Source: Perlucidibaca aquatica (GTDB taxonomy: Bacteria; Pseudomonadota; Gammaproteobacteria; Pseudomonadales; Moraxellaceae). Taken from it: DNA of 64,000 nt. The notes beneath the pieces are model-generated. The model searched no databases, had not been told where the DNA came from, and saw nothing but the letters and a program-made list of their open reading frames with translations. Positions 1 to 61,127 of this stretch are shown in pieces. Both the position numbers and the translations under genes were made by a program. Location: assembly GCF_001676655.1 (NCBI RefSeq), contig NZ_LZDB01000001.1:434001-498000 (forward strand). The letters are read 5' to 3'. Numbering within the stretch: position 1 is the stretch's first letter; every line of letters begins with the position of its first letter.

Positions 1-155
1 ATGTGGTCATTAACCAGCTCGGCGGCATCATTGAGATTCAGGGCACGGCCGAGGGTGCAGCATTCTCGCGTAAGGAAGTGGATGCGCTCATGGATCTGGC
101 CGAGAAGGGTGTGAAAGAGCTGGTGCAGGCGCAGCAGAAAGCACTGAACTGGTAA
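1..155 (+). CDS. rph: Ribonuclease PH, C-terminal end (partial)
   Basis: The frame is open from base 3 and stops at 153-155. About 50 residues are visible. They include [12 protein letters not shown] and a closing amphipathic helix, matching the conserved GG(I/V)IE(V/I)QGTAEG end of RNase PH, the phosphorolytic 3'-5' exoribonuclease that trims tRNA 3' ends. The start lies outside the window. In pseudomonads rph sits next to crc and pyrE, and here an exonuclease III/Crc homologue and pyrE follow within 8 kb. That gene order supports the call. Confidence 0.85.
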
Positions 156-194
156 GCGGGTGAGTTAACTCAACACAACAAGAAGAGGTGGGTC

Positions 195-569
195 ATGCCG
201 GATTTTCACGTGTTCACACTGTTTGTGGCATTCAATACGGTGTTGCTGACGCTGCTCGCGCTTAATGTGTCGCGCGTTCGCATTGGCCTGCGCATTCCGA
301 ATGGGGATGGCAACAGCATCCCCATGAAAAAAGCCATTCGTGCGCATGCTAATGGCGTCGAGCAAGTGGTGGTGTTTGCGCTGGTGCTACTGGCGCTGAC
401 CTACCAGGCGCTATCAGCCGAATGGCTTCTGATGCTGGCGGCTACGTTCAGCGTTGCCCGCGTGGTGCATGCGCTGGGCATGTTAAAGCCGCATATTTTG
501 GCGCGACAACTGGGTGCTGCGCTGACCTTTACGTTGCAGATTGTGGGCGCACTCTTACTGGTGTTTTGA
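195..569 (+). CDS. MAPEG family membrane protein
   Basis: This 124-residue protein has about four membrane helices (roughly residues 5-26, 56-74, 75-96 and 105-123). The MAPEG signature RAHANGVEQ is at 49-57 and a second conserved block, RVVHALGM, at 89-96. MAPEG proteins are integral membrane enzymes related to glutathione transferases and leukotriene C4 synthase; bacterial members are mostly uncharacterised. The start follows a good AGAGGTG ribosome-binding site. The gene stands 39 bp after rph and is followed by a hairpin terminator. The substrate cannot be told from sequence. Confidence 0.85.
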   Translation: MPDFHVFTLFVAFNTVLLTLLALNVSRVRIGLRIPNGDGNSIPMKKAIRAHANGVEQVVVFALVLLALTYQALSAEWLLMLAATFSVARVVHALGMLKPHILARQLGAALTFTLQIVGALLLVF

Positions 570-614
570 GTGTGGCGCACTCACATAGCGACACAATACT
601 GAACAATCCCTCAG

Positions 615-650
615 AATTTCGCTGATAGCACGCTATTGGCGAAATTTTTT
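615..650 (+). terminator. Rho-independent terminator after the MAPEG gene
   Basis: Arms AATTTCGC-TG-ATAG and CTAT-TG-GCGAAATT pair around a CACG loop with two internal mismatches, and the 3' arm runs into TTTTTT. It lies 45 bp after the MAPEG stop and separates that gene from the operon starting at 825. Confidence 0.6.
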
Positions 651-824
651 ACCAACAAAAACAATTACCTATTTCTATTCGTAGCGAGGATTTAGGCGAC
701 TCAATATCCGACTTTTATCAGACCCTCAGTGGGCACTAAACTGCCATTGAAGGATGTAACAGTTATTGCTGACTTTTTCATGGTTGGCGCTGGCATCTGA
801 TGATCAGGATAGAGAGGTCTCCTC

Positions 825-1754
825 ATGAACACTGCTACTGTGCTTGATTTCGCTGCCCATACGCCGGTGCAAAATAAGGCTATCCCTGTGCGGCATTTGG
901 CGTTTAATTTCGATGCCAGTCAGGCCGACGATAAGTTTTATTTACGTGCGGAATTGGCTACCGCCTACTTTGAAGCCCTGTCCATTTTTCTGACCTACGG
1001 CGAAGACCTGGTCATTGATACCGCGCGTCATCATCGCCAGTTCCTCACCGACCCGTTACTCAAGCAGCGCGTCACCGCCTTGATTGGTCAGGAGGCTATT
1101 CATTCAAAAATGCATAATGAATGGAACGATGTGTTGGCGCAGCATCGCTTTCCTGTCCCGCTCTTCCGCTTCCTGGGCAGCAAGGTATTCGAGTACGGCT
1201 TTAATCGATTTCCGCAGCCCTTGAAGCTTTCCATGATGGCAGGCATCGAGCACTTCACGGCGGTGCTGGCGGAATTCATGATGAAGCACGAAGATAATTT
1301 CTTCGAAACCAGCGATGCGCAGCAGCGCGCCTTGTGGATGTGGCACATGCTGGAAGAGTCTGAGCACAAAGACATCGCCTACGATGTGTACCAGACTTTA
1401 TCGGCCAACTACCCCCTGCGGGTGGTGGGCTTCGTGATCGCCCTCATCACCATTACCGTATTAGTGCCTTTCGCCGCCACGCTCATTCCGGTTATTCGCA
1501 AGCCCAGCAATGTATTGAGCCTGAGCTACTGGAAAGATGTGAAACGCAGTGCCGCGCTGATTTTCGGGCGTGAAGACGGTGTTTACGGCAGCAGCCTGAG
1601 CCATATCTTTGACTATTTACGTCGAGACTTTCACCCGAATGATCATGACACCTCCGAATGGCTGGCCTATTACAAGCAGCGTCTGCTAGACCCCAAAACA
1701 GGGTTGCTCGCACCGTATTTCGTGCGTGAATTTACCCCTGGCCTGCAAGCTTAA
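825..1754 (+). CDS. PF10118-type metal-dependent hydrolase with ferritin-like di-iron motifs
   Basis: This 309-residue protein resembles the family annotated as predicted metal-dependent hydrolase (PF10118). Metal-ligand spacing like a four-helix di-iron protein is visible: E60; E90-x-x-H93 (GQEAIH); E142-H143 (AGIEH); and E178-x-E180-H181 (LEESEHKD). A hydrophobic stretch at about 198-222 may be a membrane helix. The start follows AGAGAGG. It is first of three co-directional genes with an SDR (22 bp gap) and a Baeyer-Villiger-type monooxygenase. I infer a role in lipid, sterol or alkane oxidation rather than simple hydrolysis; that role is unproven. Confidence 0.75.
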   Translation: MNTATVLDFAAHTPVQNKAIPVRHLAFNFDASQADDKFYLRAELATAYFEALSIFLTYGEDLVIDTARHHRQFLTDPLLKQRVTALIGQEAIHSKMHNEWNDVLAQHRFPVPLFRFLGSKVFEYGFNRFPQPLKLSMMAGIEHFTAVLAEFMMKHEDNFFETSDAQQRALWMWHMLEESEHKDIAYDVYQTLSANYPLRVVGFVIALITITVLVPFAATLIPVIRKPSNVLSLSYWKDVKRSAALIFGREDGVYGSSLSHIFDYLRRDFHPNDHDTSEWLAYYKQRLLDPKTGLLAPYFVREFTPGLQA

Positions 1755-1776
1755 TCACTCCTGAGATACCTAAGTC

Positions 1777-2613
1777 ATGCTGAATTTTTTAAAAGGGCGA
1801 GCCACCAAGCCAAGTCACTCGGCGTATGCCGTGGTTACGGGAGCCGGCAGTGGCATTGGCCGTAGCTTTTCGCTGGAGCTGGCCCGCCGTCAGGGTGTGG
1901 TGGTGTGTGCCGACATTAATCTGGCAGCCGCCCAAGAAACGGTCGCGCTGATTGAGCAGGCCGGTGGCAGAGCGTATGCCGTGAGCTGTGATGTGGGCGA
2001 GGCGGAGGCGGTGCGCGCCTTGGCGGAAAACGCAGAGCAGTTACTGAGCCATGCGGTCACGCTGCTCATCAATAACGCTGGGGTGGGTCTGGGTGGCAAG
2101 TTTCATGAGCAGTCCTTAGACGACTGGAAGTGGTGCATGCACGTCAACCTATGGGGCGTTATTCATGGCTGCCATTATTTTGTGCCGGGATTTAAGCGAA
2201 ACGGGCGCGGCGCCATCATCAATGTGGCCTCCGCAGCGTCGTATACGGCGGCGCCGGAAATGAGCGCGTACAACGTCACCAAAGCGGGTGTGCGGGCGCT
2301 GTCCGAAACGCTATACGCCGAACTGAAATCGGACAACATTCGCGTAAATGTGCTGTGCCCGACCTTGGTGCCGACCAACATCATCAAAAATGGCCGTATT
2401 CCCGGACGCTACTCCGGCCTCGCCGATCATGCACTGATGAACTTTGCCATGACCACCAGCGACTCGGTGGCGAAACTGACCTTGGATAGACTGGATCAAG
2501 GCCAGCTCTATACCACCCCTCAACTAGACGCCAAGCTGTTTTGGTTAATGAAGCGTTTAGCCCCAAATTGGTATGCCGACTTTCTCGGCCTGTCTTATCG
2601 TTTCTTAAAATAA
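1777..2613 (+). CDS. Short-chain dehydrogenase/reductase
   Basis: A 278-residue classical SDR. The NAD(P)-binding TGAGSGIG is at 21-28, NNAG at 99-102, and the catalytic Ser near 152 with Y165-x-x-x-K169 (SAYNVTK). D46 after the second strand (ADIN) suggests NAD rather than NADP preference. It lies between the ferritin-like protein and the monooxygenase, 22 bp after the former and 20 bp before the latter, so the three are probably cotranscribed. It likely oxidises or reduces a hydroxyl/keto group on the same hydrophobic substrate. The exact substrate is unknown. Confidence 0.88.
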   Translation: MLNFLKGRATKPSHSAYAVVTGAGSGIGRSFSLELARRQGVVVCADINLAAAQETVALIEQAGGRAYAVSCDVGEAEAVRALAENAEQLLSHAVTLLINNAGVGLGGKFHEQSLDDWKWCMHVNLWGVIHGCHYFVPGFKRNGRGAIINVASAASYTAAPEMSAYNVTKAGVRALSETLYAELKSDNIRVNVLCPTLVPTNIIKNGRIPGRYSGLADHALMNFAMTTSDSVAKLTLDRLDQGQLYTTPQLDAKLFWLMKRLAPNWYADFLGLSYRFLK

Positions 2614-2633
2614 TTACTCAAGGGTTATGCGAC

Positions 2634-4157
2634 GTGTCAGCCACTAAACGAAACGTAAAAAAGTCTAGCGCACACATTTATGACACCTTCATCGTGGGTG
2701 CTGGTATCTCGGGCATTGCCGCTGCCGTGAAATTACGTGAAGCAGGGCTTCATGACTTTAAGATCATTGAGCGGGCCGCTCGCGTCGGCGGCACGTGGCG
2801 TGAGAACACGTATCCTGGCTGTGGCTGCGATGTGCCTTCTTCGCTCTACTCCTACTCCTTTTTCTTGAGCAGTAAGTGGAGCCGACTCTTCGCCAAGCAG
2901 CCCGAAATTCTGAGCTACTTGGAAGAAGTGAGTGACGCGCTACAGGTCACCCCACTAATCGATTTCAATACCTCGCTGGAAAGTGCCACGTGGGATGAGT
3001 CTCGTCATGTTTGGGTCCTTGTGACTAATCAAGGCGAATTTTTAGCGCGTTCCGTGGTGTTTGCCACAGGCCCCATTACAGAGTCGAAAACACCCGCGTT
3101 GCCGGGACTGGAGACTTTCACGGGTGAAATGTTCCACTCAGCGAGCTGGAATCATGACTACGACTTGGCGGGTAAGCGCGTGGCGGTTATTGGTACGGGC
3201 GCATCGGCCATTCAGTTTGTGCCGGAAATTCAGCCCAAGGTGAAATCCTTGTTGGTGTTTCAGCGCACCGCTCCGTGGGTTCTGCCTAAGCCAGATATGC
3301 CCCTGGGTGACAGCGCCAAGCAGCTCATCGAACGTCTGCCGGTAATTCAACAGGGCTGGCGCAAAGCCGTTGCCAGCTCGCTGAATGCCGTGAATTTCGG
3401 GCTTCGTAACCCGGCGGTCTTGAAACCTATTAGTACGGCCGCTAAGCAGCTACTGAAACTGCAAATCAAAGACCCTGATCTACGCCGAGCCGTGACACCC
3501 GACTTCACCTTGGGCTGTAAGCGCATTTTATTCGCCAACAATTACTACCCGGCTTTGCAGGCTCCCAACACCCGTTTGATCCCGCACGGATTAGTCGCGG
3601 TTGAGGGCAATACCGTGACTGCTGCCAACGGTGAGCGTCATGAAGTGGATGTGATTATTTGGGGAACCGGCTTTGAGGTTTCGCATCCGCCCATTGGCCG
3701 ACGCGTCATTAATGCGAACGGTGAGCGACTCTCAGACCTTTGGGTGAGCGGCTCCCCCGAAGCCTATTTGGGCGCAACCTTGGCCAATACGCCCAACGCG
3801 TTTTTAGTGCTGGGCCCTAATGTATTGGTCTACGACTCGTTTATTGGCCTGGCGGAAGCGCAACTGGGCTACATCGTGGATGGCATTAAGCAAATTAAAA
3901 CACGCGGCATTCGTAAGCTAACGATCAAGCCCTCGGTACTGAAGGCGCATAACGAAAAAGTGCAGAAGCACCTACAAGGGACGGTGTTTAACAGTGGCGG
4001 TTGCCGTAGCTATTACTTGGATCAGAACGGTCGCAACTTTGCGGCCTGGCCATGGTCGTTAGCGACCTTGCGTAAGCGGCTCAGTGCCTTCCACTTGGAA
4101 GACTACGACGTGGTGTATGAAGAGGCTAAGCAGGCGCTGTCGGCTGAAGTGGCTTAA
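2634..4157 (+). CDS. Flavin monooxygenase, Baeyer-Villiger type
   Basis: From a GTG start at 2634, which has CAAGGG nine bases upstream, the protein is 507 residues. A longer reading from ATG 2541 would overlap the SDR by 73 bp and is less likely. The FAD Rossmann motif GAGISG is at 22-27, the Baeyer-Villiger fingerprint FTGEMFHSASW (FxGxxxHxxxW) at 162-172, and the NADPH Rossmann motif GTGASA at 187-192. These enzymes insert oxygen next to a ketone, giving esters or lactones. It is last of the three-gene operon and its stop overlaps a convergent TetR gene by three bases. Confidence 0.88.
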   Translation: MSATKRNVKKSSAHIYDTFIVGAGISGIAAAVKLREAGLHDFKIIERAARVGGTWRENTYPGCGCDVPSSLYSYSFFLSSKWSRLFAKQPEILSYLEEVSDALQVTPLIDFNTSLESATWDESRHVWVLVTNQGEFLARSVVFATGPITESKTPALPGLETFTGEMFHSASWNHDYDLAGKRVAVIGTGASAIQFVPEIQPKVKSLLVFQRTAPWVLPKPDMPLGDSAKQLIERLPVIQQGWRKAVASSLNAVNFGLRNPAVLKPISTAAKQLLKLQIKDPDLRRAVTPDFTLGCKRILFANNYYPALQAPNTRLIPHGLVAVEGNTVTAANGERHEVDVIIWGTGFEVSHPPIGRRVINANGERLSDLWVSGSPEAYLGATLANTPNAFLVLGPNVLVYDSFIGLAEAQLGYIVDGIKQIKTRGIRKLTIKPSVLKAHNEKVQKHLQGTVFNSGGCRSYYLDQNGRNFAAWPWSLATLRKRLSAFHLEDYDVVYEEAKQALSAEVA

Positions 4158-5739: not shown

Positions 5740-6507
5740 TTAAATATCGTAATCAATAACTAAAGGCGCATGGTCGGAGAATTTCTCCCCCATGTAAATG
5801 TCAGCGCTACGAATAAGTGCACCGAGTTCAGGCGATACGATGTGGTAATCAATCCGCCATCCCACATTATTGGCGTAGGCTTGCCCACGATTGCTCCACC
5901 AGGTGTAGCGCTCGGCTCGTTGATCTACAACGCGGAAGGCATCGACATAGCCGACCTCGTCGAAGAGCTGGGTCAGCCAGGCGCGCTCACGCGGCAGAAA
6001 GCCCGAGTTCTTCTGGTTGCCGCGCCAGTTTTTCAGGTCGATTTCTTTGTGCGCGATATTCCAGTCGCCACAGATCACCAGTTTTTCGCCGGCCGCGCGA
6101 CGGGCTTTCAAAATGGGCATGAGTTCGAGCAAGAAAGCGTCTTTTCGGGCTTGCGCGGCATCAGACGCAGAACCGGAGGGTAAATAGAGCGAGACCACGG
6201 TAAGGTCGCCAAATTGAGCTTCGAGCCAGCGGCCTTCGGTGTCGCAGAGTTCAAAGCCGAGACCGGTGCTGACACGGTCAGGCTTCTGACGTGAATAAAT
6301 CGCGGTGCCAGAATAGCCGGGGCGCACGGCATCAAAAAAGTAACGATGCCAACCGGACGGGTTGAAGGTCTCGGCCGCGAGTTGATGCTCCTGGGCTTTG
6401 GTTTCCTGGATGCAGACGATGTCTACCCCCGAGGTTTCCAGCCAAGTGAAGAAGCCCTTGGTCGCGGCGGAGCGGATGCCGTTGAGGTTGGCGGAGACGA
6501 TGCGCAT
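5740..6507 (-). CDS. xthA: Exonuclease III family protein (position of crc)
   Basis: A 255-residue endonuclease/exonuclease/phosphatase-fold protein. The exonuclease III active-site set is visible: N7 (ANLNGIR), E35 (IQETK), Y108, D148 and N150 (CGDWNIAH), D220 (WRIDY) and D245-H246 (SDHAP). The family removes 3' blocking groups and cleaves abasic sites in DNA repair. In Pseudomonas the gene between rph and pyrE is crc, a catalytically dead relative that works with Hfq. Here the gene occupies that neighbourhood but keeps the nuclease residues, so exonuclease III is the better call. It starts 2 bp after the MFS gene. Confidence 0.85.
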   Translation of the reverse strand: MRIVSANLNGIRSAATKGFFTWLETSGVDIVCIQETKAQEHQLAAETFNPSGWHRYFFDAVRPGYSGTAIYSRQKPDRVSTGLGFELCDTEGRWLEAQFGDLTVVSLYLPSGSASDAAQARKDAFLLELMPILKARRAAGEKLVICGDWNIAHKEIDLKNWRGNQKNSGFLPRERAWLTQLFDEVGYVDAFRVVDQRAERYTWWSNRGQAYANNVGWRIDYHIVSPELGALIRSADIYMGEKFSDHAPLVIDYDI

Positions 6508-6509
6508 GT

Positions 6510-7796
6510 TTATTCCTTGCTGAGCGGTGGTATATCACTATTCATCATCGCCGCTGAGACCAGCGCAATGGCTGTGAGTAGCCACAAATAGATCACGACA
6601 AAATGTGGCTCGCCGCCACCCTTGGCAAGCAGCGCCGTGGCAATCATCGGGGCTAAACCGCCGCCGAGCACGCCGGCAATTTGAACGCCAAGCGAAATAC
6701 CGCTGTAACGCACGGCGGCGGGAAATTGTCGGGAAAATAGTAGCGACTCGGGTGCATACATGAGCGGAAAAACTAGGCCAATGGCAATCACCAGCGCCAA
6801 CCAAGCTGACGCTAATTCACGACTGCCCAACAGGGTAAAAAATGGCCAAACATAAAGTGCCAGTATGCTTAAGCCGATCAAATAAAGTCGCTTTGCGCCG
6901 ATGCGGTCCGCGAGCCAGCCGGCGAGTGGCATGGTGAGGAGTGACAATGCCGCGCCCGCGGTGATGGCGCTGAGTATTTCTGCTCGGGGGAGTGCCAAAG
7001 TGCCTGTCGCGTAGGCCAAGGCAAATGTCGCGGACAAATAGAACCAAGCGTTCTCCGCCATGCGCGCGCCAATGATGGTCAGCACGGGACGGCGGTGATG
7101 TCGCAGGATGACCGCAAGCGGCGCTTGCACAGCAGTCTGCTGGGTTTTTAGTGACACAAACTCCGGTGATTCCGGTACACGGGAGCGTATCAGCCAGCCG
7201 ACACCTAGCAGCACGACGCTGGCCAGAAAGGGCAGGCGCCAACCCCAGCTCATCAGGTCTTCTTCCGGTAGTTGCGCGACAGCACCCATGGCCAGCGATG
7301 ACAGTACTAAACCTGCACCCACACCGGTTTGCGGCAAGCTGCCATAAAATCCTTTTTGATCTGGCGGGGCATGTTCGACCGCCATCAAAACGGCGCCGCC
7401 CCATTCGCCGCCCACCGCGACACCTTGTAAAAAACGCAGCAGCACCAGAAGCGCAGCGGCCCAATAGCCAATTTGGTCGTGGGTGGGAATCAAGCCAATG
7501 GCGATGGTGGGAATGCCCATCATCAGCAACGTTAGGATCAGCATGGCTTTACGGCCAACGCGATCGCCAAAATGACCAAAAACAATGCCGCCGAGCGGTC
7601 GGCCAATGAAGCCGACGGCGTAAGTTGCGAACGCCGCGAAAAGGCCACTGAGGGGGTCCATTTCGGGGAAAAACAGTTTGTTAAACACCAGCGCGGCGGC
7701 AGTGCCATAAAGAAAGAAGTCGTACCACTCAATGGTGGTGCCGGCAAAGCTGGCGAGCCCGGCTATCCGGTGATGAGATTGCTTGGGGCTCGACAT
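6510..7796 (-). CDS. MFS transporter, metabolite:H+ symporter type
   Basis: A 428-residue, 12-helix major facilitator. The N-terminal block TTIEWYDFFLYGTAAAL and the loop 2-3 motif GHFGDRVGRK (74-83) are typical of the MHS subfamily (ProP, KgtP, ShiA), which moves organic acids, osmolytes or shikimate with protons. The substrate is unknown. It lies 17 bp after the preceding lipocalin-like gene and 2 bp before xthA in the minus-strand run. Confidence 0.88.
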   Translation of the reverse strand: MSSPKQSHHRIAGLASFAGTTIEWYDFFLYGTAAALVFNKLFFPEMDPLSGLFAAFATYAVGFIGRPLGGIVFGHFGDRVGRKAMLILTLLMMGIPTIAIGLIPTHDQIGYWAAALLVLLRFLQGVAVGGEWGGAVLMAVEHAPPDQKGFYGSLPQTGVGAGLVLSSLAMGAVAQLPEEDLMSWGWRLPFLASVVLLGVGWLIRSRVPESPEFVSLKTQQTAVQAPLAVILRHHRRPVLTIIGARMAENAWFYLSATFALAYATGTLALPRAEILSAITAGAALSLLTMPLAGWLADRIGAKRLYLIGLSILALYVWPFFTLLGSRELASAWLALVIAIGLVFPLMYAPESLLFSRQFPAAVRYSGISLGVQIAGVLGGGLAPMIATALLAKGGGEPHFVVIYLWLLTAIALVSAAMMNSDIPPLSKE

Positions 7797-56509: not shown

Positions 56510-57325
56510 TTAGCGCTGGCAGTGCCCGCAAAACACCGTGCTGCGGGCACTCAAACGCACTTCCTTCAGTGCCTTGCCGCACTGCCGGCACGGTTGCCCG
56601 GCACGCCCGTAGACCAGTAATTCCTGCTGAAAATATCCCGGCTCGCCCTGGCTGTTGACGAAGTCGCGTAGCGTTGTGCCGCCGCGCGTGATGGCGTGCG
56701 CGAGAATATCGCGGATAGCCTGCGACAGCCGCTGATAGCGCTCCGCGCTGATGCGGCCCGCTTCGCGCAATGGGTGGATGCCGACCTGAAACAGCGCTTC
56801 ATTGGCGTAGATATTGCCGACGCCGACCACCACATGGCTATCCATGATGAAGCTTTTCACCGGCGCAGTTTTGCCACGGCTGAGGCGGAATAGGTGATGG
56901 TTATCGAACTCGGCCTGCAGCGGCTCCGGCCCCAGCGATGCCAGCAGGGGGTGCTTGAGCGGATCATCGCGCAGCCACAGGCAGCAACCGAAGCGGCGTG
57001 GGTCGTGGTAGCGCATGAGCCAGTTGTTATCCAGCGTCCATTCGAGGTGATCATGGGTCTTGCGCGGCGTACCGGGCGTGACCAGCCGCAGGCTGCCGGA
57101 CATGCCCAGATGCACCATCATGACGCCGGTGTCGATGTGGAAGAGCAGGTATTTGCCGCGTCGGCTGATGCGTGCCACGCGCTGATTCGCCAACAATTCG
57201 GGTAGCTCGGGCGGAACGGGCCAACGCAGCCGTGCGTTGTGTACACGCAGGCTGACAATACGTTGGCCTTCAACAAACGGTTGGATGCCGCGGCGAGTGG
57301 TTTCTACTTCGGGGAGTTCAGGCAT
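56510..57325 (-). CDS. mutM: Formamidopyrimidine-DNA glycosylase
   Basis: A 271-residue MutM/Fpg. The N-terminal catalytic PELPEVETTRRGI, the H2TH region with VGNIYANEALF, and the C-terminal zinc finger (CRQCGKALKE...CGHC) are complete. It removes 8-oxoguanine from DNA. It starts 9 bp after the HvfC-like gene, so it is probably cotranscribed with the RiPP operon. Confidence 0.96.
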   Translation of the reverse strand: MPELPEVETTRRGIQPFVEGQRIVSLRVHNARLRWPVPPELPELLANQRVARISRRGKYLLFHIDTGVMMVHLGMSGSLRLVTPGTPRKTHDHLEWTLDNNWLMRYHDPRRFGCCLWLRDDPLKHPLLASLGPEPLQAEFDNHHLFRLSRGKTAPVKSFIMDSHVVVGVGNIYANEALFQVGIHPLREAGRISAERYQRLSQAIRDILAHAITRGGTTLRDFVNSQGEPGYFQQELLVYGRAGQPCRQCGKALKEVRLSARSTVFCGHCQR

Positions 57326-57334
57326 GGCATCAGT

Positions 57335-58102
57335 TTAGCCGAGGAAGGCCAGGCCGCCATGCTGCAATTGCAGTAATACGCGCTGGCAGGCTGCCAGTGC
57401 TTGCTCGTGGCCGATACCGGGGCTGGCGTGAACCAGCTCATCGGCTAGGTTGTTGAGAGTTTGGTCACCGAGCTGGATGCGCTCGACCAGCCAGGCCGTC
57501 AGCGGCTCCACCACCAGAGAACGAACTTCGTCGTCACGGTTGCGCCAGAGCACAACCGCCTGCGCCTGCGCGTGCAGATCGGCAGGATCGGTCTCGACCG
57601 ACCAGCTCGCGACTGGCCACTGGTAAGCCAGCGGCCACGCCGGCATCGCGAGTCGGATTGGCGCATCGAGTCGTTCCCAGCGGCTCTCGTCGGCGAGGAC
57701 GCAGTCGGCCGCGACGCTGGGGTTGGGTTCTTCGGTGATGTCTGCCGCCAGCTCCATCCACTCGTAATGCAGCAGCTCGGTCAGCCACGGGAAGTCGGCC
57801 AGTTCGGGCCAGTCCAGCGCCGCCACAAATTCCCTGAAGTGCAGAGAGATGTCGTAGAAAAAGGGCGACTGGCAGTGATAGTCCGCAAAAAAGTGATCGC
57901 TCAGACGTTGCCAGAGTGGTTCTGGCAACAATGCCTTGGCGACCGGAAACGTGATGTCGACAAAGTTGATGACATTGTTGAACAGCAGCTCGCGATAAGT
58001 GTGCATGCGCGCCGGCAGTACCCCGGTTGGCAGCGGGGCGGAGTCCGGCTGTCGCAACCAGTGGGTGAACTCAGCCTGAGTTTGCTGAAAATCACGCGGC
58101 AT
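57335..58102 (-). CDS. HvfC/BufC-type DUF2063 partner protein
   Basis: A 255-residue protein. The N-terminal DUF2063 block (FTHWLRQPD, LFNNVINFVDITFPV, DYHCQSPFFYDISLHFREF) and a C-terminal winged-helix-like part (LTAWLVERIQLGDQTLNNLADEL) match the partner proteins found with DUF692 oxidases. The pair binds the precursor peptide and presents it. It overlaps the oxidase gene by 11 bp and precedes mutM. Confidence 0.88.
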   Translation of the reverse strand: MPRDFQQTQAEFTHWLRQPDSAPLPTGVLPARMHTYRELLFNNVINFVDITFPVAKALLPEPLWQRLSDHFFADYHCQSPFFYDISLHFREFVAALDWPELADFPWLTELLHYEWMELAADITEEPNPSVAADCVLADESRWERLDAPIRLAMPAWPLAYQWPVASWSVETDPADLHAQAQAVVLWRNRDDEVRSLVVEPLTAWLVERIQLGDQTLNNLADELVHASPGIGHEQALAACQRVLLQLQHGGLAFLG

Positions 58103-58955
58103 CGCGGTGAGCTTGCTGGTATTGGCGGATGATGCTCATTTCGGCGAGCAGATCCGGCAACGCTGGGATGTTGAAGTCGCGCTCCAGCAAGGTCGGGAAC
58201 GTGCCGAAGTGTTCATAGGCCGTGCGCAGCAAGGCCCAGACATCGGCGCAGACATCATCGCCATGAGTGTCGATGCGCAGGTCTTCGGCTTCCACGAAAT
58301 GCCCGGCAATATGGGCATAGCGTATGCGTTGCGCCGGCAGCGAGCGCAGGTAGTGCTCGGCATTGAAGCCATGATTGATGCTGTTGACGAAGATGTTGTT
58401 CACATCCAGCAGCAGATCGCAGTCAGCCTTTTCCAGCACGGCGCAGACAAAATCCTGCTCGCTCATGTCGCTGCCCGGTGCGGCATAGGTCGACACATTC
58501 TCCAGCGCAATGCGCCGGCCGAGGATGTCTTGCACTTGCCCAACGCGCGCCGCGACATAATCAACGGCGGCTTGCGTCATCGGAATTGGCAGCAAGTCAT
58601 AGAGGTGCCCGGCATCGCCGGTATAGCTCAGGTGCTCGGAATAGGTCGCGATCTGATGACTGTCGAGGAACTTGCGCAGGCGCTGGAGAAATTCAATATC
58701 CAGCGGTGCCGGGCCGCCTATCGACAAGGACAGGCCGTGAGTGACAAAGCAGTGGCGCTCCGTGAGTGCGCGAAGGTTACGCGCATAACGGCCGCCAAGA
58801 CCGATCCAGTTTTCCGGAGCGATCTCGAAAAAATCGGGGAGGGTGGCAGCAGGCACCGAGTCCAACACCGCTAAAAAACTGCGGCGCAGACCCAGGCCAG
58901 CTCCCTGCACGGGAAAACCTTGCACCGGAAAATGCTGTGCTGTTGTCCCGTTCAT
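58092..58955 (-). CDS. HvfB/BufB-type DUF692 multinuclear iron oxidase
   Basis: A 287-residue TIM-barrel MNIO. The metal-ligand blocks are EIAPENW (45-51), HGLSLSIGG (73-81), YSEHLSYTG (104-112), ALENVSTY, DVNNIFVNSINHGFN, HIAGH, DTHGD and LERDFNIP. MNIOs use two or three irons to oxidise cysteines of precursor peptides into heterocycles and thioamides. It lies eight bases after the precursor gene. Confidence 0.92.
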   Translation of the reverse strand: MNGTTAQHFPVQGFPVQGAGLGLRRSFLAVLDSVPAATLPDFFEIAPENWIGLGGRYARNLRALTERHCFVTHGLSLSIGGPAPLDIEFLQRLRKFLDSHQIATYSEHLSYTGDAGHLYDLLPIPMTQAAVDYVAARVGQVQDILGRRIALENVSTYAAPGSDMSEQDFVCAVLEKADCDLLLDVNNIFVNSINHGFNAEHYLRSLPAQRIRYAHIAGHFVEAEDLRIDTHGDDVCADVWALLRTAYEHFGTFPTLLERDFNIPALPDLLAEMSIIRQYQQAHRDAA

Positions 58956-58963
58956 GAGTCAGC

Positions 58964-59236
58964 TTACTTCTTGGCGCCGCACTTGCCTTCGCCACATTTG
59001 CCTTCGTGAGCTTTCTTAGCTGCGCCGCACTTGGCTTCAGCGGCTTTCTTGTCTGCACCACACTTGGCTTCGGCGTCTTTTTTGGCGCCACACTTTGCTT
59101 CGCCACACTTGCCTTCAGCGTGAGCAGCGGCAGGAGCAGCAGCGGCAGCAGCCGGTGCTTCGCCAGCGTGAACCAGGCCCGTAACGGACAGAGCGAAGAG
59201 AGCGGCGATCGGGGTCAGAGTTTGCAGCTTATTCAT
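58964..59236 (-). CDS. HvfA/bufferin-like RiPP precursor with six Cys motifs
   Basis: A 90-residue precursor. The signal peptide is about 1-24 (ending LVHA), then an Ala/Pro spacer to residue 40. The core has six E(G/A)KCG motifs with cysteines at 44, 49, 59, 70, 81 and 86. Three are EGKCG (44, 81, 86) and three EAKCG (49, 59, 70). In HvfA from Haemophilus influenzae the EGKCG cysteines are reported to become oxazolone-thioamide groups that bind copper. The RBS GAGG is nine bases upstream. It precedes the oxidase gene. Confidence 0.9.
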   Translation of the reverse strand: MNKLQTLTPIAALFALSVTGLVHAGEAPAAAAAAPAAAHAEGKCGEAKCGAKKDAEAKCGADKKAAEAKCGAAKKAHEGKCGEGKCGAKK

Positions 59237-59318
59237 GATTCATATCCTCAGGATTTTTGGGTGATCACCAACGAATATTCGCTAGTGTCACCCTTTAGAG
59301 TATTGACGGCGGCATTTG

Positions 59319-59350
59319 TTACGGAATGAAAGAAAATACTTTCACGGTAA
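59319..59350. promoter_or_regulatory. Imperfect palindrome upstream of the RiPP precursor gene
   Basis: TTACGGAATGAAAG and CTTTCACGGTAA are inverted around AAAATA. The inner TGAAAG/CTTTCA is perfect; the outer TTAC-G halves pair with small mismatches. It lies 83-114 bp before the precursor start and 84 bp after the zinc-finger gene stop. It may be an operator. The minus-strand GTAACA at 59317-59322 resembles ECF -35 elements, but no matching -10 was secured. Confidence 0.45.
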
Positions 59351-59433
59351 TGTCCGAACACTTGCGCTGTCAGAACAGAAGTAACGACCAAGCCGAGAAA
59401 TAGAGTACAGGAAGTACAAATGCCCGCTCCAGT

Positions 59434-59679
59434 CTAGTGATGCGTATGGCCTGAGTGGTCATGGTCCAACGCTTCCATCCACATCTTGATCTGTGCTTCA
59501 GTCGGTGGCTTGGCCGGGCGTTTACGCAGTGCGCGTAGCATGGTCAGAATTTGGATAACGGCGAGTCGGCAATTGCCACAGCGCAGCAAGTGCCAAACCA
59601 CACCCAAGTTGACGCGCCAGGGCAGTGCTCCGGAAAGGAATTCGGTGGCATTCGTGCCCACATCTTTACATTTCAACAT
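59434..59679 (-). CDS. ZAS-type zinc-finger protein with His-rich tail (putative anti-sigma)
   Basis: An 81-residue soluble protein. C4 and the H30-x-x-x-C34-x-x-C37 motif give the ZAS zinc-binding pattern of anti-sigma factors. The end is DHDHSGHTHH (H73, H75, H78, H80, H81), a likely metal site. No membrane helix is present. Its ATG overlaps the ECF sigma stop by seven bases, the usual sigma/anti-sigma coupling. I infer it holds the sigma factor until metal or thiol stress. Confidence 0.75.
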   Translation of the reverse strand: MLKCKDVGTNATEFLSGALPWRVNLGVVWHLLRCGNCRLAVIQILTMLRALRKRPAKPPTEAQIKMWMEALDHDHSGHTHH

Positions 59680-60311
59680 TCGCCGGTCTCCTCGTAGTGG
59701 GACACCATGGAAAACACCCGGATTCGGGCACGGTGCAGCAATACGCGAAAATTAGACGGGCTAATGCTCAGCGTGTTACAGATTTCTGTCGGGGAAAGTC
59801 CTTCCATGTCTTTCAGTGTTAGCGCTAAGCGCTGGCCTTCGGGCATGTCGTCCATGTGGTGCTCGATACATTCTTGCAGCACACGTGCGCTGAGCAGCGC
59901 GTCTGGCGTGTCGTCATCCCACTGTTGCCATTGTTTAGCCCATTGTCCCGCGCTGTTAAAAGCGCCATCGAGAGGGTCATGCTGGGCTTCTAAGCCTTCC
60001 AGTGATACTTCACGGCCCTGCTTGCGCAGGTAGTTGTAGGCCTTATTGATGGTGATGCGGGTCAGCCACGTTTTTAGGCCAGAACGACCTTCGAAATCCT
60101 TAATGGCGCCATAGACTGAAATCCACGCGTCTTGAACGGCGTCTTCAGCATGTTGCGGTGCGACAGCACGCGCAGCGGCCAGCATGGCGCCACCAAAGCG
60201 ACGCATGGCTTCGCGATAGGCGAGGCGGTCGCCAACGCGCAAGGCGGAGAGGAGGATGGATTCGCTGCTTTCAGCATTAAAGCGCGCGCCACCGGGACTT
60301 GCAGAGGCCAT
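59673..60311 (-). CDS. ECF-type RNA polymerase sigma factor
   Basis: A 212-residue sigma-70 family protein. Region 2 (HAEDAVQDAWISVYGAIKDFEGRSGLKTWLTRITINKAYNYLRKQGR, 54-100 overall) and region 4 (GQRLALTLKDMEGLSPTEICNTLSISPSNFRVLLHRARIRVF, about 160-200) are recognisable. The RBS GGAG is six bases upstream. It lies 12 bp after the DUF815 gene and overlaps the zinc-finger gene, next to the RiPP genes it probably controls. Confidence 0.92.
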   Translation of the reverse strand: MASASPGGARFNAESSESILLSALRVGDRLAYREAMRRFGGAMLAAARAVAPQHAEDAVQDAWISVYGAIKDFEGRSGLKTWLTRITINKAYNYLRKQGREVSLEGLEAQHDPLDGAFNSAGQWAKQWQQWDDDTPDALLSARVLQECIEHHMDDMPEGQRLALTLKDMEGLSPTEICNTLSISPSNFRVLLHRARIRVFSMVSHYEETGEC

Positions 60312-60323
60312 GAGAGCTCCGGA

Positions 60324-61127
60324 TTAGTGTGATGGTTCTGTGAATAATAATTGTTGTCGACCCGACCAGTCGCGAGCGAACTGCATAGCAACACGGCCGC
60401 TGCGTGAGGCGCGTGTCTGAGCCCAGCGCAATGCCTCGCCACGCACCTGATCATTCCATTGGGTGTAGTCGAGTTGCTGCAAATGGTGCTGTACCAAGTC
60501 CAAGTATTCGTTCTGGCCGAAAGCGAGAAAGGACAGCCAAAGCCCGAAGCGTTCCGACAGCGAAATTTTTTCCTCAACCGACTCGCCGGGGTGAACTTCG
60601 TCGTCTATCCACTGGTACTCGGCGTTGTCGGACTTGAGCGACGGCATCAGGTAGCGGCGGTTGCTGGTGGCGTAAATCAGCACATTGTCCGGCGCTTCTT
60701 CGACGCCGCCATCCAGCGCCGTTTTCAACGCGATGAGGGCCGGATCATTGCTGGCCACGGAAAAGTCATCGACATAGAGAATGAATTTCTCGGCACGGCC
60801 ACGCAGCGGCGCGACGATGTCGGGCAGGTCAATGAGGTCGTGCGGCGGCACTTCGATCAGGCGCAGGCCATCGCTGGCGAACTCATGCAGCAAGGCTTTC
60901 ACCAGCGAGGATTTGCCGGTGCCACGAGCACCGGTGAGCAACACATGATTGGCCGGCAGGCCACGAACAAATTGTTCGGTGTTCCGGCGCAATGCCTGCT
61001 TCTGACGGTCGATGTTGAGCAAATGGGCCAGCGGAACGGCCTGTGTTTTCGCAACGGCTTGCAGTTGGCCCTGACGCCAACGCCAGGCCAACGTCATGTC
61101 AGGTAACGGAAGAGTGTGGTGTGACAT
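60324..61127 (-). CDS. DUF815 AAA ATPase
   Basis: A 267-residue protein with Walker A GARGTGKSS (66-74), Walker B FILYVDDFS (about 115-123) and the DUF815 blocks IEVPPHDLIDLPDI and LIYATSNRRYLMP. The function of the family is unclear. It is upstream of the sigma gene on the same strand with a 12 bp gap, so it may be the first gene of that transcript. Confidence 0.9.
   Translation of the reverse strand: MSHHTLPLPDMTLAWRWRQGQLQAVAKTQAVPLAHLLNIDRQKQALRRNTEQFVRGLPANHVLLTGARGTGKSSLVKALLHEFASDGLRLIEVPPHDLIDLPDIVAPLRGRAEKFILYVDDFSVASNDPALIALKTALDGGVEEAPDNVLIYATSNRRYLMPSLKSDNAEYQWIDDEVHPGESVEEKISLSERFGLWLSFLAFGQNEYLDLVQHHLQQLDYTQWNDQVRGEALRWAQTRASRSGRVAMQFARDWSGRQQLLFTEPSH

Follow-up and report, generated by a model that had tools for sequence, protein, structure and literature searches.

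What controls a peptide operon that lies directly behind the gene of an extracytoplasmic function (ECF) sigma factor, and does that sigma factor serve the operon alone? The question is raised by a locus in a stretch of 64,000 nucleotides from Perlucidibaca aquatica (contig NZ_LZDB01000001.1, positions 434,001 to 498,000), which is called the window below. In this locus, a sigma factor gene is followed on the minus strand by the genes for a small zinc-finger protein, a cysteine-containing precursor peptide (hvfA), a DUF692 oxidase (hvfB) and a DUF2063 partner protein (hvfC). We consider it quite probable that these genes form a captophorin operon of the EGKCG or oxazolin type governed by a switch of an ECF sigma factor and a zinc-binding anti-sigma (ZAS) factor. 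The protein families, the synteny, the promoter motif at several genes and the nucleotide constraint are its observed basis, from which the signal, the chemistry, the copper binding and the transcription are predicted. The new part of the locus is a putative promoter motif inside the sigma gene, which would make the regulatory unit a variant.

The peptide operon and its regulators

The peptide genes form a captophorin (oxazolin) operon of the ordinary EGKCG type and thus belong to a known kind. In comparisons with Pfam and NCBIfam, the DUF692 protein matches PF05114 with 336 bits and the HvfB equivalog NF003818 with 412.6 bits (cutoff 360), and with 271.9 bits it stays under the cutoff of 310 for BufB (NF050167). 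Its nearest solved structure is the DUF692 protein 3bww (E 1.6e-60), which has been placed in a ribosomally synthesized and post-translationally modified peptide (RiPP) locus of Histophilus somni (PMC12668002). The DUF2063 partner matches the HvfC equivalog NF050145 (203.9 bits, cutoff 142) and NGO1945_C. The precursor has a start that, judged by eye, resembles a signal peptide, all six of its cysteines lie in EGKCG or EAKCG units, and it passes the cutoff of the HvfA KCGExKCG domain NF050137 (62 bits, cutoff 19.5); precursors of the same type occur in the hvf loci of relatives. In the genome, hvfB is the only gene for a multinuclear non-heme iron-dependent oxidase (MNIO), and the one match to DoxX is distant and not linked to the locus. 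An initial annotation of this DNA had described a locus of the Hvf or bufferin type and had proposed a search of precursor and oxidase against curated families. That search placed the DUF692 gene in the HvfB family and the precursor in the HvfA repeat model; the Hvf-type MNIO operon therefore stands, and the bufferin type, for which the BufB cutoff failed, does not. An operon for bufferin 1 (DUF2282) was considered and rejected, because the precursor has no DUF2282 match and the BufB cutoff is unreached.

The products of MNIO-PME1 operons of this class, namely, fontiphorin, oxazolin and gonophorin, carry a 5-thiooxazole placed on cysteine and bind copper (PMC12668002; PMC13419390), and we infer the same conversion, with a loss of 4 Da per cysteine, and copper binding for the present precursor. 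The initial annotation had named thio-heterocycles or thioamides. Oxazolone/thioamide groups, as in methanobactin, agree with the first structural assignment of oxazolin and survive in the name of the NCBIfam family; however, that assignment has been revised to 5-thiooxazole (PMC12668002; PMC13419390), which was established for oxazolin and gonophorin by alkylation-assisted heteronuclear multiple-bond correlation (PMC12668002) and is likewise used in the later HvfB paper (PMC13419390). Today a copper-binding 5-thiooxazole is the accepted product of the class, and an oxazolone/thioamide peptide at this locus appears very improbable.

The regulators adjoin the operon, as had been claimed. The ECF protein contains Sigma70 regions 2 and 4 and no region 3 (PF04542 and PF08281, that is, Sigma70_r2/r4_2, and TIGR02937 are over cutoff), and the gene directly downstream, which overlaps it by 7 nt, encodes an 81-aa protein with a cysteine followed by H-x3-C-x2-C. 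The ligands Cys4, His30, Cys34 and Cys37 follow the numbering of MseR exactly (PMC2893595). Because no curated profile was passed, the assignment of this protein as a ZAS-type anti-sigma factor rests on the ligand and gene positions, and its binding and inhibition of the sigma factor are predicted. Its C-terminal tail is rich in histidine (HDHDHSGHTHH, with EEHKHHHHPH and DDAHPHDH as variants in the genus), is retained throughout the genus and is missing from most homologues elsewhere, and it is possibly a metal-sensing addition. Two further codons of the ECF gene, in alignment columns 250 (Val GTG 11/11) and 253 (Tyr TAC 10/11), are unusually fixed as well; they lie near its end, not far from where the anti-sigma gene begins, and an overlapping ribosome-binding region is perhaps the cause.

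The gap of 197 nt before the precursor gene, which the initial annotation had called promoter-sized, contains an ECF-type promoter motif. The form [TC]GTAAC-N18/19-TCTAA upstream of hvfA is common to the genus and to other members of the family; GTAACN{18,19}TCTA has two matches within the window against 0.09 expected, and the motif stands upstream of hvfA in 15 of 33 hvf loci against 0.11 expected. According to the published consensus of the neisserial sigmaE, GTMAGBWTT-N12/13-CGTCTAAH (PMC2893595), the spacing and the TCTA of the -10 box agree with the hvfA motif, but the window has GTAAC rather than GTMAG at -35 and ACTCTAA at -10; thus, the architecture is shared and the boxes are not identical.

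Seven genomes of the genus (G000, the genome of the window, to G006) were compared. The order ECF, anti-sigma, hvfA, hvfB, hvfC, mutM is found in G000, G001, G004, G005 and G006 and, to the end of its short contig, in G002. The order is therefore kept in six of the seven genomes and is not a chance arrangement, and the synteny with the DUF815 gene and mutM is also retained in the genus. The best named relative of hvfB, in a scan of named genomes that yielded three loci, is from the Moraxellaceae metagenome-assembled genome UBA2477 (94% identical). In other families, an ECF/anti-sigma pair is directly followed by hvf-type genes at loci L139, L141, L144, L145, L147, L150 and L151. One of these, L144 (2360-2700), has the switch with both promoter motifs ahead of an MNIO gene and a precursor of the CKG (Buf2-like) type, although sigma genes are reported for Buf1 clusters and reported absent from Buf2 clusters (landscape paper, PMC12452194).

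G003 differs from the other genomes. The ECF gene, the anti-sigma gene and mutM stand together without hvf, and hvfABC lies elsewhere beside a second ECF/anti-sigma pair, which is convergent to hvfABC (L037 / L116). Within the genus, the operon has therefore come to stand beside other genes and perhaps under other regulators. Because the pair persists there without hvf and the motif precedes several other genes, the regulators are not dedicated to hvf, and the sigma factor is not the operon's "own", as had been supposed. The suggestion that these regulators may be undescribed also falls, since the linkage has been published. In Neisseria meningitidis, the linkage takes the form of one operon, NMB2140-2145 (PMC2893595); that its genes include DUF692 and DUF2063 members follows from NGO1945, after which PF22106 is named, and from the ngo cluster in PMC12668002. 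In Haemophilus influenzae, RpoE2/HrsE governs an hvf-type operon (DoxX/DUF692/DUF2063) and msrAB and is tied to hypochlorite stress (PMC7907618).

Several findings weigh against the captophorin operon and its switch as we propose them. The precursor scores 41.5 bits against the full-length HvfA equivalog NF050188, under the cutoff of 95, and its EAKCG units depart from EGKCG. An AKCGA variant of FonA was modified just once by FonBC, so the EAKCG units probably fit the preference of their own HvfB. The anti-sigma protein remains below the curated cutoffs (zf-HC2, 16.8 < 22.2; antisigmaE NF052368, 27.5 < 50). In the closest relative, G006/UBA2477 (L040 / L002), the hvfA promoter motif has been lost by a deletion between the anti-sigma gene and hvfA, so that its hvfABC would rely on the internal promoter or on read-through. 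A genome-wide search found no enrichment of the motif, with 9 matches against 47 for the reversed-pattern control; therefore, the individual targets and the regulon rest on position and conservation.

A putative promoter within the sigma gene

A motif of the same form lies inside the sigma gene approximately 73 nt before the anti-sigma start, over the region 4.2 codons TGT AAC ACG CTG AGC ATT AGC CCG TCT AAT (C-N-T-L-S-I-S-P-S-N). Among 11 close homologues, the cysteine is TGT in 11/11, the asparagine AAC in 11/11 and the serine TCT in 10/11, whereas codon use differs at most of the other invariant residues; the probability that the three codons would all rank within the 7 most conserved columns out of 72 is 0.0006. 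In a wider set of 44 homologues, drawn from the family, the order and the class, the motif cysteine is TGT in 44/44 compared with 31/115 (27%) for other cysteine codons of the same genes, and the motif serine is TCT or TCC in 43/44 compared with 118/476 for other serine codons. Codon changes were also counted on a protein tree built without the motif columns. TGT changed 0 times among the motif carriers, compared with 12 and 12 times at two other cysteine columns, and the two TGT changes on the tree are both in paralogues that lack the motif.

At first glance, the internal TGTAAC...TCTAA might be a by-product of conserved region 4.2 residues (C-N ... S-N) and no promoter. These residues are kept in the clade, and region 4.2 is under functional constraint. 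However, the positions that are fixed are synonymous ones, the codons between the boxes vary freely, and the codons TGT and TGC both occur among paralogues that lack the motif. Moreover, nine homologues in one nested clade have different residues at the site and no internal motif, and in 8 of these 9, GTAAC-N18/19-TC[TC]A instead occurs upstream of the sigma gene. The motif is internal only in 43 homologues, upstream only in 8, in neither place in 8 and in both places in 0. We therefore regard the by-product explanation as improbable.

Constraint at the codon level by itself names no element, and it could be genuine and yet stem from an element other than a promoter, for example, a second gene in an overlapping frame, a functional RNA or the binding site of a regulator. 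This we hold to be less probable still, because alternative or antisense frames are open in at most 13 of the 43 sites, and the internal boxes and their spacing match the promoters of hvfA, arsS and msrB and are mutually exclusive with the upstream motif. An overlapping antisense gene was rejected as the cause on the strength of this frame count.

The fixed codons, the exclusion with the upstream motif and the want of an open alternative frame lead to a prediction, strongly backed by conservation across the compared sequences: most likely, the internal motif serves the anti-sigma gene as a promoter that depends on the sigma factor. More broadly, we believe it likely that the region 4.2 DNA of a large gammaproteobacterial ECF group is also a promoter that is read by that same sigma factor and would drive the downstream anti-sigma gene, and that one nested clade gave up the promoter within the coding sequence and has it ahead of the sigma gene instead. 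A point to be set on the other side is that the internal -10 box reads TCCAA in the GC-rich families, where the promoter is possibly weaker. Our literature search for internal promoters of anti-sigma genes, which covered open-access papers, found the precedent of Corynebacterium glutamicum alone.

If the proposal is true, few examples of dual-coding DNA would be as clean as this one, in which the DNA-recognition codons of a transcription factor are its own target. The position of the promoter would then decide between a circuit that damps its own response and one that amplifies it, and the two arrangements would represent a switch, provided by nature, from a stress circuit built for negative feedback to one built for self-amplification or back.

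Candidate targets, signal and proposed working

Targets in the own genome were sought by pattern search. The motif stands directly before an arsS-like radical S-adenosylmethionine (radical-SAM) gene, which has a VTT-domain gene behind it, in G000, G001, G003 and G006; directly before a flavin adenine dinucleotide (FAD) oxidoreductase gene heading a DUF1365/cyclopropane fatty acid (CFA) synthase cluster in G000, G001 and G003; and directly before a gene for a twin-arginine translocation (TAT)-type MsrB in G001 and G004. The msrBA genes of the own genome have GTAGC-N18-TCTAA, with one mismatch at -35. Four of the nine matches in the own genome (L058, L061, L063 and L064) were dismissed as coding or antisense sequence. 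At L056 (G000:C1 near 274743), 33 nt separate the motif from a gene for a phosphate-binding-protein-like (pstS-type) product (PBP_like_2) downstream; this site is seen solely in G000 and G006, which are near-identical genomes, and was kept as an uncertain target. At L154 (G000:C2:741500-747500), the cluster of genes for an FAD oxidoreductase, a DUF1365-like protein, CFA synthase and a DUF3833-like protein (8-3824) has the ECF motif upstream, and we take it to resemble the singlet-oxygen regulon of other ECF systems.

The initial annotation had inferred a copper- or thiol-stress regulon, and a role in metal or redox stress is indeed probable. An ECF paralogue in the same genome (55% identical; L152, G000:C2:466000-480000, 6401-7030) overlaps with its start the last bases of cusA in a copper-efflux locus of CusCBA/CusRS/multicopper-oxidase-like genes, named from a reading of the translations, with no adjoining anti-sigma gene; in G003, a paralogue of the second ECF group adjoins hvfABC. 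Together, the two placements support a part for copper, which would be a signal or a target of the switch, if not necessarily the sole one. A view of copper as the signal is countered by the ties of the Neisseria and Haemophilus relatives to oxidative stress, and the switch might be mainly a sensor of oxidants or hypochlorite, with a redox-protective rather than a copper-handling peptide. The methionine sulfoxide reductase and the FAD/DUF1365/CFA cluster among the regulon candidates would suit such a sensor, as would RpoE2 of H. influenzae, which controls its DoxX/DUF692/DUF2063 operon and is linked to hypochlorite stress (PMC7907618). Nevertheless, copper is bound by captophorins, whose production is often induced by metal in excess (PMC12668002); with the paralogue inside the Cus locus and the histidine-rich tail of the anti-sigma factor, we consider the mainly oxidative alternative rather unlikely.

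The proposed switch would work as follows. Basal read-through from the DUF815 transcript would provide low-level expression of the sigma gene, and the zinc-bound anti-sigma factor would keep the sigma factor inactive. Oxidants or a thiol-reactive metal, such as copper, would upset the Zn-Cys site of the anti-sigma factor, perhaps with the histidine-rich tail, and release the sigma factor, which would then act at TGTAAC-N18/19-TCTAA promoters of hvfABC, msrBA, and the radical-SAM/VTT and FAD/DUF1365/CFA repair genes. It would also fire the promoter within its own gene, so that anti-sigma factor is made; the circuit would thereby restrain itself by negative feedback, where such circuits usually amplify themselves. 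HvfB and HvfC would convert all six cysteines of the precursor oxidatively into 5-thiooxazoles, and the peptide, exported by the Sec route, would bind excess Cu(I) in the periplasm. The locus adds a member from the Moraxellaceae to a class of copper-handling RiPPs found in important pathogens, and it ties a peptide operon to a candidate regulon of Msr repair, membrane-lipid modification and radical-SAM genes.

Locus layout and known systems

All five open reading frames were found at the coordinates and in the order of the initial annotation (Table 1). The overlaps and small gaps that it described are also present: beyond the overlap of the sigma and anti-sigma genes, hvfA and hvfB are separated by 8 nt, and hvfB and hvfC overlap by 11 nt.

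Table 1. Genes and promoter motifs of the hvf locus, with positions in the window.
Feature	Position	Strand	Family or basis
mutM (formamidopyrimidine-DNA glycosylase), flanks hvfC downstream, outside the system	56510..57325	-	sequence
hvfC, DUF2063 / PME1 partner (RiPP recognition) protein, 255 aa	57335..58102	-	NF050145, PF09836, PF22106 NGO1945_C
hvfB, MNIO (DUF692) iron oxidase, 287 aa	58092..58955	-	NF003818, PF05114, PDB 3bww
hvfA, 90-aa precursor, N-terminal signal peptide (by eye), six Cys	58964..59236	-	NF050137
Predicted hvfABC ECF promoter, GTAAC-N18-TCTAA	59295..59322	-	motif; ends ~59 nt before hvfA ATG
Predicted ZAS-type anti-sigma factor, 81 aa	59434..59679	-	positions of ligands and gene
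ECF sigma factor, 212 aa	59673..60311	-	PF04542, PF08281, TIGR02937
Promoter motif (putative) within sigma gene, TGTAAC-N18-TCTAA	59752..59780	-	codon-level conservation
DUF815 AAA ATPase	60324..61127	-	PF05673, 312.7 bits; 12 nt upstream of ECF gene

Among known systems, oxazolin/HvfABC of H. influenzae with RpoE2-HrsE (PMC7907618, PMC13419390) is alike in HvfB, HvfC and the cysteine-repeat precursor, in control by an ECF sigma factor and a small ZAS anti-sigma factor, and in the control of msrAB as well. However, its sigma genes lie elsewhere and its operon contains DoxX, whereas the present sigma and anti-sigma genes adjoin hvfA and no DoxX is linked. The gonophorin locus of Neisseria with the sigmaE-MseR operon NMB2140-2145 (PMC2893595, PMC12668002) unites the ECF, ZAS, DUF692, DUF2063 and precursor genes in one locus, as here, and shares the ZAS ligand positions, the spacing between the -35 and -10 boxes, the TCTAA -10 box and an msr gene in the regulon; it differs in gene order and in the presence of DoxX. 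It is published as one autoregulated polycistronic operon, and the text consulted reports no internal promoter. Fontiphorin (FonABC of Fontimonas thermophila; PMC12668002) is likewise an EGKCG-type captophorin with an MNIO and a PME1 protein, but it has seven cysteine sites compared with six here, and the present precursor mixes EAKCG with EGKCG. The DUF2282-type bufferins of Caulobacter with SigF-NrsF (PMC12452194, PMC3511200) also combine an MNIO/DUF2063 operon, an ECF sigma factor and metal stress, although their precursor family, NrsF-type anti-sigma factor and BufB clade are different. The sigH-rshA pair of C. glutamicum (PMC3489674), in which PrshA is a sigma-dependent promoter of the anti-sigma gene inside sigH, is a precedent for the architecture of the putative internal promoter and not for its sequence, since it belongs to the actinobacterial SigH/SigR family and its promoter reads GGAA-GTT.

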